From Sphingomonas sp. (GTDB taxonomy: Bacteria; Pseudomonadota; Alphaproteobacteria; Sphingomonadales; Sphingomonadaceae), in assembly GCA_013817375.1 (NCBI GenBank), contig JACDCV010000004.1, positions 1 to 42,865 on the forward strand: a DNA stretch of 42,865 nucleotides, given 5' to 3'. How positions within the stretch are numbered: position 1 is the stretch's first letter; every line of letters begins with the position of its first letter. Below, in pieces: positions 7,791 to 31,972 of this stretch. The notes beneath the pieces were generated by a model that saw nothing but the letters and a program-made list of their open reading frames with translations, was not told the DNA's origin and ran no database searches. The position numbers and the translations under genes were made by a program.

Positions 7791-10175
7791 ATGAAAATCG
7801 CGTGCATCGGCGGCGGGCCGGCGGGGCTCTATTTCGCGATCTCGATGAAGCTTCGCGATCCGGACCACGAGATTCACCTGTTCGAGCGCAACGCCCGGGG
7901 CGTGACCTTTGGCTGGGGGGTCGTCTTTTCCGACCAGACGCTCGACAATTTGATGGCCAGCGACCGCAAGTCGGCCGAAATCATCGCCAGCGAGTTCGCT
8001 CACTGGGACGATATCGACGTCCATATCCACGGGCAGTGCATCACCTCGTCCGGACATGGCTTCATCGGCATCGGCCGCAAGCGGCTGCTCGAGATATTGC
8101 AGGAGCGGGCGATCGAGCTTGGAGTCGTTCTTGCCTTCGAATCCGAGTGCGATCCGGCCGACGCGAAGTGGCGAAGCTATGATCTGGTGATCGCGGCCGA
8201 CGGAGCCAATTCGCGCTTCCGCGACGCGCAGGTCGAAGCGTTCGAGATCGACGTCGACGAGCGCGCAAACAAGTTCGTCTGGCTCGGCACATCGAAAGTG
8301 TTCGACGCCTTCACCTTCGCGTTCGAGGAAACGGAGCACGGCTGGATTTGGGCTCATGCCTATCGCTTCGCGCCGGACTGCTCGACCTTCATCGTCGAAT
8401 GTTCGGAAAAGGTCTGGCGCGGCATCGGCTTCGATACGATGAGCCAGGACCTGAGCATCGCCACCTGCGAGGCGCTGTTTGCCAAATATCTCGACGGCCA
8501 TTCGCTTCAATCGAACGCCAGCCACCTGATCGGCTCGGCGGCCTGGCTGAACTTCCGCCGGATCAAGTGCGACACCTGGTCGCACGGCAACGTCATCCTG
8601 CTGGGCGACGCGGCGCACACCGCGCATTTTTCGATCGGGTCGGGGACGAAGCTTGCGCTCGAGGATGCGATCAAGCTTGCCGAGGTCCTGGATCGCGTTT
8701 CGTCATTGCGAGGAGCGCAAGCGACGAAGCAACCCAGCGGCACCGACTCTGGATTGCTTCGCTCCGCTCGCAATGACGGACCATTGTCATTGCAAGCGGC
8801 GCTCGAGGAATATCAAGCGGAGCGCAATCTCGAGGTTCTCAAGCTTCAGAACAGCGCCCGCAACTCAACCGAATGGTTCGAAACTCTCGACCGCTATTTG
8901 CACTTCGAGCCGCTTCAATTCACCTATTCGCTGCTGACCCGAAGCCAGCGCATCAGCCACGAGAATTTACGCCTTCGCGATCCGGAATGGCTGGAAGGCG
9001 TCGAGCGCTGGTTCTGGAGCAAGGCGACCGACGGCCGGTCCGAGAAAAGCGCCCCGCCGATGTTCGCGCCGTTCAAGCTTCGCGGAATGCAGGTCGAAAA
9101 CCGGGTCACCGTGTCGCCAATGGCGATGTATTCGGCCGTGGACGGGACGCCGAACGACTTCCACTTCGTCCACTATTGCGAGCGCGCGCTCGGCGGCGCG
9201 GGCCTGTTGTTCACCGAGATGACCTGCGTGTCGGCGGAAGGCCGGATCAGCCCGGGCTGCACCGGAATGTGGAACGAGAGCCATGTCGCCGAGTGGAAGC
9301 GGATCGTCGGCTTCGTCCATTCGAACAGCAAGGCGAAGATATGCCTCCAGCTCGGCCATTCGGGCGCCAAGGGCTCGACGAGGGTCGGCTGGGAAGAGGA
9401 CAATGCGCCGCTAGAGGATGGCAACTGGCCGTTGCTTGCGCCCAGCAACGTGCGCTGGTCGCCGGCCAACCAGATGCCGCGGCCCATCACCCGCGCCGAC
9501 ATGGACAGGGTTCGCGATCAGTTCGTCGCCGCAGTCCGGATGGGGATCGAATGCGGTTTCGACATGGTCGAGCTTCACGCCGCCCACGGCTATCTGTTGT
9601 CGGGGTTCCTGACCCCGCTTCAGAACAGGCGCACCGACGAATATGGCGGGAGCCTCGCCAACCGCCTCCGCTACCCGCTCGAGATATTCGGCGCGATGCG
9701 CGACTCCTGGCCGTCGGACAGGCCGATGTCGGTGCGGATCTCGGCGACCGACTGGGCCGGCGATGACGGGATCACGCCCGACGACGCCGTCGAGATCGGC
9801 GAGGCATTCGCGCGCGAAGGCGCCGATTTGATCGACGTGTCGGCGGGCCAGACCTGGACCGGTGGAAAGCCGGTTTATGGCCGGATGTTCCAGACGCCTT
9901 TCTCGGATCAAATCCGCAACGAGGCAAAGCTTGCGACCATGGCTGTCGGCAATATCTACGAGCCCGACCACGCCAATTCGATCCTTGCCGCGGGGCGCGC
10001 CGATCTGGTGGCGCTTGCACGGCCGCACCTGATCGACCCGTTCTGGACTCTGCGCGCGGCGGCAGCGCTCGACTATCGCGACGTGCACGTCCCGCCCCAA
10101 TATCTCAACGGCCAGGCCCAGCTCGCCCGCAACCTGAAGCGCGAAGCCGAAGCGGCGGCGGCCCTCAAGGTGTGA
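7791..10175 (+). CDS. Bifunctional salicylyl-CoA 5-hydroxylase / old yellow enzyme-type oxidoreductase, with in-frame repeat insertion
   Basis: 794 residues from ATG 7791 (the track starts at TTG 7770). Residues 1-390 are a class A flavoprotein monooxygenase: dinucleotide motif GGGPAG near residue 8, mid motif [10 protein letters not shown], and the FAD ribityl motif GDAAHTAHF near 272. Residues ~420-785 are an old yellow enzyme TIM barrel ([50 protein letters not shown]). This architecture is that of salicylyl-CoA 5-hydroxylase/oxidoreductase and of 2-aminobenzoyl-CoA monooxygenase/reductase; both hydroxylate an aromatic CoA thioester. Which substrate is used cannot be told. Residues ~304-330 ([11 protein letters not shown]...GLLRSARND) come from a palindromic repeat and are not expected in homologues. 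No CoA ligase is nearby. The stop overlaps the downstream kinase start. Confidence 0.9.
8701..8778. repeat. Palindromic repeat, copy 1, inserted in frame in the monooxygenase gene
   Basis: 78 bases with inverted ends. The left end CGTCATTGCGAG is exactly the reverse complement of the right end CTCGCAATGACG, and the inner halves CGAAGCAACCCAG and CTGGATTGCTTCG also pair. The same family occurs at 30982-31049. Length 78 = 26 codons and no stop in the host frame, so the reading frame is kept. It translates to [13 protein letters not shown]...GLLRSARND, a peptide type commonly seen in spurious ORFs derived from this widespread repeat class. Confidence 0.92.
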
Positions 10176-11757: not shown

Positions 11758-11849
11758 GGCGGAGACGGAGGGATTCGAACCCTCGGTACGGGAATACCCC
11801 GTACGGCGGTTTAGCAAACCGCTGGTTTCAGCCACTCACCCACGTCTCC
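11757..11849 (-). tRNA. tRNA-Ser(GCU)
   Basis: The minus strand folds as a class II tRNA. The acceptor arms are GGAGACG (5') and CGTCTCC (3') with discriminator G and an encoded CCA at 11759-11757. The anticodon stem GCGGT/ACCGC encloses loop TTGCTAA, giving anticodon GCT. The long variable arm CGTACGGGGTATTCCCGTACC is typical of serine tRNAs, and the T arm contains GGTTCGAATCC. It reads AGC/AGU codons. Its 5' 22 bases overlap the 3' end of the PAS-GGDEF-EAL ORF on the same strand. Confidence 0.95.
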
Positions 11850-29570: not shown

Positions 29571-30962
29571 CTAGCGGCCGACCATCGATCCTGGCTTCAC
29601 GACCCGCTCGAAAGTCTCCTCATCGACATGGCCGAGCTCGAGCCCGGCTTCTTTTAAAGTCTTGCCGGTCTTGTGCGCGTGCTTGGCGATCTCGGCCGCC
29701 TTGTCATAGCCGATCTCCGGAGCAAGCGCCGTCACCAGCATCAGCGAGCGCTCGAGAAGGTCGCTGATCCTCGCCTCGTCCGGCTCCAGACCTTCGAGGC
29801 AGCGCTCGCAAAAGCTCTCCATCCCGATCGCGAGCAGGGTGATCGATCGAATGATGTTCGCGCCAATGAGCGGCTTGAACACGTTGAGCTCGAGGTGGCC
29901 CTGGAGCCCGCCGATCGTAACCGCGACATGATTGCCCATCACCTGGGCGGCAACCATCGTCAGCATTTCCACCTGGGTCGGGTTGACCTTGCCCGGCATG
30001 ATCGAGCTTCCCGGCTCATTCTCGGGAAGTTTCAGCTCACCGAGACCGCAGCGCGGGCCGGAACCCATCAGCCGGATGTCGTTGGCGATCTTGGTCAGCG
30101 ACACGGCGAGCGTGTTCAGGGCGCCTGAAAGCTCCACCATCGTATCGTGAGCGGCCATTTCGGCGAACTTGTTGGGCGCCGAGGTGAACGGCAAACGCGT
30201 GAGATTGGCAACTTCCCTGGCGACCGCCTCGTCGAATCCCTTCGGGGTATTGAGCCCGGTGCCCACAGCGGTCCCGCCCTGCGCCAGCCGATAGATGCGC
30301 GGCATCAGCTCCTCGAGCCGGGCGATATTGGCTTCCATCTGCGCTGAATAGCCGGAGAATTCCTGGCCGAGCGTCAGCGGAGTCGCATCCTGCAAATGCG
30401 TGCGGCCGATCTTGACGATATCGTCCCACTTGCGCGCCAGCTCGGCGAGCAGCCGGTGCATCTCTTTGGCCGCGGGAAGGAGCCTGGAGGTGATCGCCCG
30501 GGCGGCGCTGATGTGCATCGCGGTCGGGAAGCTGTCGTTCGACGACTGGCTCTTGTTGACATGGTCGTTGGGGTGAACCGGCTCCTTGCCGCCTCGCTTT
30601 CCGGTCAGCTTCTCGTTGGCGCGGCCGGCGATCACCTCGTTGGCGTTCATGTTGGACTGGGTGCCGGAGCCGGTCTGCCAGATGACCAGCGGGAACTGGT
30701 TGTCGAGGTCGCCGCAAGCGACTTCGCCGGCGGCCTGCTGGATCGCTTCGGCAAGCTCGGCGTCGAGCAAACCTTCGCGCGCATTCACCCGTGCCGCCGC
30801 CTGCTTGACGAAGCCGAGCGCGTGGATGATCTCGACCGGCAGCGCCTCGCGCGGCCCGAACGGGAAGTTGCCGATCGACCGCTCGGTCTGCGCTCCCCAA
30901 TAAGCGTCGGCAGGAACGTCGATGGGTCCGAAGCTGTCGGTTTCGGTGCGATTGCTGCTCAT
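29571..30962 (-). CDS. fumC: Class II fumarate hydratase
   Basis: 463 residues. It catalyses fumarate to malate in the TCA cycle, with no Fe-S cluster. The fumarase/aspartase signature [13 protein letters not shown] lies at residues 318-330 with the catalytic Ser; other blocks are [13 protein letters not shown] near 98, [11 protein letters not shown] near 140 and [20 protein letters not shown] near 186. ATG 30962 fits the family start [26 protein letters not shown]. The upstream region holds the second palindromic repeat. Confidence 0.97.
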
Positions 30963-30981: not shown

Positions 30982-31049
30982 CGTCATCGCGAGGAGCGGT
31001 AGCGACGAAGCGATCCAGCGCGACTGCTTCGCTTGCGCTCGCAATGACG
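30982..31049. repeat. Palindromic repeat, copy 2, between sspB and fumC
   Basis: 68 bases: left half CGTCATCGCGAGGAGCGG... with inner CGACGAAGCGATCCAG; right half CTGCTTCGCTTGCG...CTCGCAATGACG. Its ends are the same as those of copy 1 at 8701-8778 (one base differs in the left end). It starts 20 bases upstream of the fumC ATG and ends 9 bases after the sspB stop, and could form a large hairpin in the sspB 3' end or fumC leader. Confidence 0.9.
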
Positions 31050-31058
31050 GCGCTCCTG

Positions 31059-31544
31059 TTATTTTTTGCGCGTGAAGTCCACGCTGACGACGTTCGATCC
31101 GTCGTCGGCGACGGCTCCCACCGAGGGCGAGTCATTTTGCGCCTGCTCATGCTCCTCGGGCGCCGGCTCGGCAGCATTTGCCTGAAACTTGAGGCTGAAA
31201 TCCACGGCCGGGTCGACGAACTCGGTCACTGCAGCGAAGGGCACGTGCAAGGTTGACGGCACCCCACCGAACGACAGGCCGACCGAAAAGGCATCCTGTT
31301 CGACCTTCAGGTCCCAGAAGCGGTGCTGGATGATGATGGTCATCTCTTCGGGGAACTGCTCGGTGAGATGTTTGGGGATCAACACGCCCGGCATCCGGGT
31401 CTGGAAGGTGATGTAGAAATGGTGAGGCCCGGCGAGCCCGCCGGACCGCTCGACCTCGCCGAGCACTCGCCCGACGACATCGCGAAGCGCCTCCTGCACG
31501 ATTTCGTCGTACGGAATCAGGCTTTCTGGAGTCTCGTCGCTCAT
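31059..31544 (-). CDS. sspB: SspB-family ClpXP adaptor protein
   Basis: 161 residues from ATG 31544; the track ORF carries 51 false N-terminal codons overlapping the HIT gene. The core (IPYDEIVQEALRDVVGRVLG, HHFYITFQTRMPGVLIPKHL, MTIIIQHRFWDLKV, FSVGLSFGGVPSTLHVPFAAVTEFVDP) is the alphaproteobacterial SspB fold, which in Caulobacter SspBalpha delivers ssrA-tagged proteins to ClpXP. A disordered acidic linker follows, and the C-terminal tail ends VVSVDFTRKK, in the place of the ClpX-binding tail. Divergent from the HIT gene with a 50-base gap. Confidence 0.87.
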   Translation of the reverse strand: MSDETPESLIPYDEIVQEALRDVVGRVLGEVERSGGLAGPHHFYITFQTRMPGVLIPKHLTEQFPEEMTIIIQHRFWDLKVEQDAFSVGLSFGGVPSTLHVPFAAVTEFVDPAVDFSLKFQANAAEPAPEEHEQAQNDSPSVGAVADDGSNVVSVDFTRKK

Positions 31545-31594
31545 CGATTCGGGTGGTAACGAGGCGACGTTCCCGGTCAAGCGGAGTTGAGTTG

Positions 31595-31972
31595 ATGCCG
31601 ATCGATCCGACGCAGCCTTACGACGACAGCAATGTCTTCGCGAAGATCCTTCGCGGCGAGCTTCCATGCAAGAAGGTCCATGAAGACGAATGGGCACTCG
31701 CCTTCCACGACATCAACCCCATCGCCCCCGTCCATATCCTGGTGATTCCCAAGGGCAATTACGTCTCCTGGGACGATTTCGCCGAACAGGCGTCGGATGC
31801 AGAGCTTGCCGGATTCGTCCGTGCAGTCGGCAAGGTCGCCCGCGACCAGCAGCTCGAGGTCCAGGGCTACCGGCTTCTCGCCAACACCGGAAAGCGCGCC
31901 GGTCAGGAGGTTCCGCACCTCCATGTTCACATCTTCGGCGGGCAGCCGCTGGGACCGATGCTAGCCCGCTGA
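31595..31972 (+). CDS. HIT (histidine triad) family protein
   Basis: 125 residues from ATG 31595, which has GGAG eight bases upstream; the track's 139-residue start lies in the divergent sspB region. The triad HLHVHIF (His108, 110, 112) is complete, with the HINT-branch features FAKILRGELPCKKV at the start and FHDINPIAPVHILVIPK in the middle. These proteins hydrolyse nucleoside phosphoramidates such as AMP-lysine. A general housekeeping enzyme; the natural substrate is unknown. Confidence 0.93.
   Translation: MPIDPTQPYDDSNVFAKILRGELPCKKVHEDEWALAFHDINPIAPVHILVIPKGNYVSWDDFAEQASDAELAGFVRAVGKVARDQQLEVQGYRLLANTGKRAGQEVPHLHVHIFGGQPLGPMLAR

Follow-up and report, generated by a model that had tools for sequence, protein, structure and literature searches.

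The window, the whole 42,865-nucleotide stretch of a Sphingomonas sp. contig that was analysed, contains a fused salicylyl-CoA 5-hydroxylase/oxidoreductase gene with a palindromic repeat lying in frame within it (Table 1). The encoded protein matched NF006101 ('bifunctional salicylyl-CoA 5-hydroxylase/oxidoreductase') over residues 1-790 with 1239 bits against a cut-off of 1078, and its Pfam domains are FAD_binding_3 and Oxidored_FMN. This match bears out a preliminary description of the DNA, in which the gene was considered unbroken and its flanking domains intact. The position and 78-bp length of the element, its perfect 12-bp ends (8701-8712 and 8767-8778) and its stop-free host frame were also exactly as described there, and the element as a whole is an imperfect palindrome. 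On each strand, one of the three frames of the element is closed by a stop. The host frame is open over 27 codons, and the element would therefore be read through by the ribosome. As RNA, the whole element folds into a hairpin of -41 kcal/mol (z -4.8 relative to dinucleotide shuffles), and folding as DNA gave z -5.0 relative to shuffles. The perfect 12-bp inverted repeat taken alone was rejected as evidence, with three such repeats in the window and 0-4 in 20 simulated windows. Because it is within chance, the case for the element rests on its full-length pairing and dispersed repetition.

Table 1. Features of the hydroxylase gene, the palindromic element and the second copy of the repeat in the window
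Feature	Position	Strand	Details
Host gene, salicylyl-CoA 5-hydroxylase/oxidoreductase (OYE) fusion	7791..10175	+	794 aa; single copy in the genome
Helix before insert	8640..8714	+	residues 284-308, the last five from the insert; AlphaFold2 model
Family A palindromic repeat	8701..8778	+	78 bp, in frame; codes for host residues 304-330
Longer half-palindrome	8701..8737	+	CGTC tag, ATTGCGAGGAGCGCAAGCGACGAAGCAAC, CCA(G) tail; alignment A1 of 11 copies
Variable loop between halves	8738..8748	+	CGGCACCGACT; in G005 a second palindrome is nested here
Shorter half-palindrome, inverse orientation	8749..8778	-	on the - strand CGTC tag, then ATTGCGAGCGGAGCGAAGCAAT and the CCA(G) tail
Helix after insert	8790..8882	+	residues 334-364; AlphaFold2 model
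OYE-type FMN domain	9060..10067	+	residues 424-759, PF00724; intact downstream of the insert
Second family A copy	30982..31049	+	intergenic; the SspB-like gene and fumC on either side are encoded on the - strand

An orthologue of the host gene was present in 45 genomes of the genus; 42 of these have no insert at the site and three have one. Between fixed motifs, the window gene has 159 nt and the insert-free orthologues have 78 nt, giving a net gain of 81 nt (27 codons) that is made up of the 78-bp element and 3 nt. All 80 loci fetched from the species collection were screened for the motif, and of those in which it was found, only the G005 record had a long insert. For the hydroxylase, the same peptide at the same place was not met with outside the genus. 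An AlphaFold2 model calculated with 31 orthologues has a coil at residues 307-328 with pLDDT <50. In this model, the insert lengthens the linker, predicted to be disordered, that joins two FAD-domain helices, in agreement with the surface loop previously proposed between these helices. The conservation of the frame suggests that the insert is translated as a disordered, Arg/Ser-rich surface loop. Directly 3' of the element, TTGTCATTGCAAGCG (8786-8800) resembles the element's own start, yet it codes for the conserved LSLQAA segment, and the likeness is probably due to chance.

Copies of this repeat, which we call family A, consist of two unequal half-palindromes, each starting with CGTC and ending with CCA, that are separated by a variable loop and have their CGTC tags pointing outward. 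The 5' CGTC was invariant in the alignment of 11 copies. The longer half folds differently from the shorter half, and the halves pair over about 5 bp; the shorter half pairs over 5 bp plus 2 bp and by itself folds no better than shuffles (z 0.25). This architecture is similar to that of the CGTC-tagged REPs, which Di Nocera, De Gregorio and Rocco (2013) described as abundant in alphaproteobacteria, including sphingomonads, and as having no dedicated transposase (PMC3733652). The CGTC ends, the A-T at the first two stem positions, the CCA tails and the dimeric arrangement are the same; CGTC stands at the end of the unit in both halves, and the shorter half (CGTC-ATTGC...GCAAT-CCA) has both the A-T start and the CCA tail. 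A dedicated transposase is absent in both cases. However, the published units have a continuous stem of 8-9 bp and a loop of 4-5 nt, whereas the half-palindromes here pair over ~5 bp. Since the continuous 8-9 bp monomer stem was not found, the element, compared here with the published text description, is termed CGTC-REP-like rather than filed as a member. The GTAG REPs associated with RAYTs are likewise short dispersed palindromes that are often paired in inverse orientation, but the element has no GTAG tag and the genome has no Y1/RAYT gene.

The repeat is dispersed in the window genome. The element end, CGTCATTGCGAG, occurs exactly 17 times, compared to 0 for a reversed control, and a search with a covariance model of family A built from 11 copies detected 13 distinct full copies at >65 bits and 17 at E<=1e-3. 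Together with the orthologues that are 27 codons shorter at the site, these copies confirm that a real palindromic repeat has been inserted in frame, as the preliminary description held. The hydroxylase copy scored 89.5 bits, the second best in the genome, and its arms are near the family consensus. The second copy in the window is 19 bp upstream of fumC (29571-30962, -) and lies 9 bp past the stop of the SspB-like gene (31059-31697, -). The flanks of 157 family A copies were fetched from the genus, and the open frames spanning them were tested against Pfam. Only four of the 157 sampled copies, a lower bound, were in frame within a Pfam-supported gene, including those in PCC-alpha of G065 and G082 and SufC of G033. 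Coding copies are thus a small minority, and the majority of copies appear to be intergenic. Several long open frames across copies had no domain on both sides and were not counted, being probably spurious or extensions of the N-terminus. A codon-usage classifier of coding versus intergenic copies, applied to the same 157, was too weak, missed the window copy and was discarded.

Inserts were found at the same hydroxylase codon in two other species of the genus, G005 and G031. In G005, the complete family A repeat is present with a second palindrome (CACGCGGAG.../CTCCGCGTC...) placed exactly between its CCAG and CTGG. In G031, the left arm of the family A repeat is followed by the second palindrome of G005, and the right arm is gone. 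The gains are 81 nt in the window genome (G000), 162 nt in G005 and 126 nt in G031, all open and all multiples of three. The insertion had been described as recent and, by implication, single; this is not supported, as the same codon is occupied in these two species, with a nested second palindrome. In the gene tree, grouping of the three carriers as a clade was rejected (AU p 0.005), and with it a single origin of the three inserts. An unusual right flank, x-P-L-S-L, is common to G000 and G005 and absent from the insert-free orthologues; it may point to shared ancestry or to an exchanged segment, so that exchange or losses are still conceivable. Because the three carriers are not a clade, the gene sequences indicate at least two gains, or one gain with several losses or an exchange.

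The same kind of recurrence was observed, more strongly, in two further enzymes, and the counts given for them refer to the loci examined rather than to every genome. In the alpha subunit of propionyl-CoA carboxylase (PCC-alpha), which is biotinylated, a palindrome was present between RYxPP and VRVDDGV in 16 of 30 genus loci. Five families were represented: A, the repeat found at 8701-8778; B, CATCCCCGCGAAAGCGGGGAC; C, CGCGGAGACGCGGAG; D, GTTCGTCCTGAGCG; and E, CCCTCCCGC-GCGGGAGGGG. Palindromy was significant against shuffles in each of the 16 loops (p <=0.035), whereas the 14 loops that remain all lacked it. Sister species carried different families, with A in G065 and C in G086 (support 99), and D in G093 and B in G009. 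The loop of G079, a cultured carrier, reads PPQTRHPRESGDPAKQEKLGSRLRGNDEVRVR, and G014 is a relative that has no insert. Four species of other genera of Sphingomonadaceae had inserts of the B, D and E types in this loop. In eight further species, the stretch is 49 residues long and is not palindromic.

In SufC, palindromes were detected in 12 of 29 genus loci (p 0.0 each), and every one of them sits at the same point, between the VTF strand and DLLAM. They belong to families A, B and D, a D variant, E and one more family (F). The 17 loci without an insert have a constant 41-residue stretch, and none of them is palindromic. The window genome's own SufC (L370, G000:C210:1545-2111) contains a family D palindrome in frame (CCGTTCGTGTCGAGCGAAGTCGAG...). 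Family D is also a dispersed repeat, as its arm matched the window genome 21 times and the reversed control 0 times; the complete genome of G110, from another genus, has 135 family D arm matches, far above the window genome. One SufC insert is common to G003 and G088, which differ by ~27% per synonymous site in the flank, and the pN/pS of this insert, from one usable pair, rests on 7 changes, too few to be informative.

Across the hydroxylase, PCC-alpha and SufC loops, 35 of 35 inserts kept the frame and contained no stop; the carriers were found via protein similarity, which favours open copies, but stops were read through and counted, and no broken copy was seen at the loci examined. Nesting was demonstrated at two loci only, both in G005. 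In the hydroxylase, a family C palindrome lies within A, and in PCC-alpha an intact family B left arm is followed by C and then by a remnant of the B right arm (p 0.013). Apparent nesting in G016 and G086 was not significant.

No Y1/RAYT transposase (PF01797) was found in the window genome, and the gene was absent from 68 of 71 genus genomes, including complete genomes having 52-68 matches to the repeat model. For most of the genus, RAYT-driven mobility was therefore rejected. The survey of the genus yielded just three genes for Y1-type transposases, L204, L205 and L206 (G086, G005 and G034). At the borders of 155 copies, direct repeats of 1-6 nt were no commoner than in re-paired flanks. With no target duplication found, DDE-type transposition and MITE membership are unsupported.

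Collectively, these results make it highly probable that the element is an in-frame, CGTC-REP-like dimer in the FAD-domain linker that is translated as a tolerated loop, and that it is one case of the recurrent occupancy of the same loop. As judged from the sequences compared, unrelated palindrome families have repeatedly occupied a small number of permissive loops in conserved enzymes of the genus and family. We infer that the insert peptide is neutral, and that insertion may proceed along the following lines. Repeats without a transposase would spread through the genome without target duplication, and an intragenic copy would survive if the frame is kept, the closed frame is avoided and the position is a loop. 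Once a palindrome resides in a permissive loop, further palindromes could follow. A new palindrome would land in the loop of an old one, whose arms would then decay, and turnover may occur at least partly in this way. The G031 hydroxylase is an example of an arm lost after nesting, and nesting followed by erosion may be the main route of family switching.

A recent one-off insertion in frame at a site that is not special would explain why 42 of the 45 genus orthologues have no insert and why the arms of the window copy, second best in the genome at 89.5 bits, are still near the family consensus. We consider this improbable, given that the same codon is filled in two other species and that such recurrence is more extensive still in PCC-alpha and SufC. 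The recurrence itself might instead reflect a selected function of the insert, such as a hairpin that slows the ribosome between subdomains or a basic peptide used for binding or localisation. Some palindrome is kept at the same loop in many species despite differing sequence, and the SufC insert has been inherited by G003 and G088 across the ~27% synonymous difference in its flank. Yet the peptides are unrelated between families and many species manage without any insert, which makes selection an unlikely explanation.

The strength of the hairpin, at -41 kcal/mol, would also suit removal of the palindrome at the mRNA level, or a ribosome that skips it, leaving a protein of normal length. All 35 inserts are multiples of three and free of stops, though one frame per strand is closed, and this argues against removal because a removed element would not need an open frame; we regard such an event as very improbable. 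An assembly artefact might be suspected from the fragmented assemblies of the window genome, G005 and G031 (253, 180 and 150 contigs, respectively). However, three independent assemblies agree on the hydroxylase site, and among the genomes with an insert in PCC-alpha are near-complete ones and that of a cultured isolate (G065, G079, G095, G110). The near-complete genomes refute an artefact as an account of the overall pattern, and its likelihood is negligible.

The preferred reading, a translated and tolerated loop that is repeatedly occupied, may be extended further. It is possible, although we are inclined to doubt it, that the PCC-alpha, SufC and hydroxylase loops of Sphingomonadaceae are landing sites in which palindromes insert into one another, so that recurrence would reflect an insertion preference for existing palindromes and not tolerance alone. 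If so, enzymes that are conserved and in many cases essential would contain a translated peptide that changes rapidly. Protein-coding palindromes have so far been treated chiefly as a Rickettsia curiosity. The inserts in PCC-alpha, SufC and the hydroxylase bring them to free-living bacteria, to purifiable enzymes and to many species and repeat families. Two questions thereby become testable: whether the peptide is present and harmless in the protein, and how REPs without a transposase move and choose their sites.

In-frame palindromes and REPs are a known kind of element. CGTC-tagged REPs are mostly intergenic near 3' ends, with some lying within genes, and in-frame intragenic REPs have already been reported for other sphingomonads (PMC3733652). 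According to PMC10969869 and PMC3733652, the palindromic elements of Rickettsia (Ogata et al. 2000, 2002) occur in frame in genes of unrelated function and are read as an extra peptide. The window element acts in a similar mode, being an in-frame, stop-free palindrome in a conserved gene that has insert-free orthologues, and the parallel drawn in the preliminary description is apt in the sense of a tolerated in-frame insertion. The further statement there that both lineage and sequence differ holds for the lineage; the sequence part is weakened by RPE-4 and RPE-6 of Rickettsia conorii, which have been placed in the CGTC-tagged superfamily that the element resembles (PMC3733652). Compared to the Rickettsia elements as those papers present them, the repeats described here are found in a free-living sphingomonad, are mostly ~70-80 bp long, occupy the same loop recurrently and are nested. 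For CGTC-tagged REPs, one case of nearly coincident positions in two species is reported, in recB of two Xanthomonas (PMC3733652), whereas in the present data a single loop can hold palindromes from several unrelated families across many species. Colonisation of the same loop by unrelated palindrome families thus appears to be new within the open-access papers searched, with recB in the two Xanthomonas species as the nearest precedent.

No family matching the element was found in Rfam, and a search of papers for the literal repeat sequence returned nothing but unrelated primers. The sole Rfam match in the window was a tRNA gene at 11760-11849 (-). Beyond the genus, the family A model also matched 19 of 191 other genomes sampled from the class. 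In another alphaproteobacterium (L398, G270:C13), the model matched tandem-like groups of ~108-bp copies, a related repeat with a different organisation.
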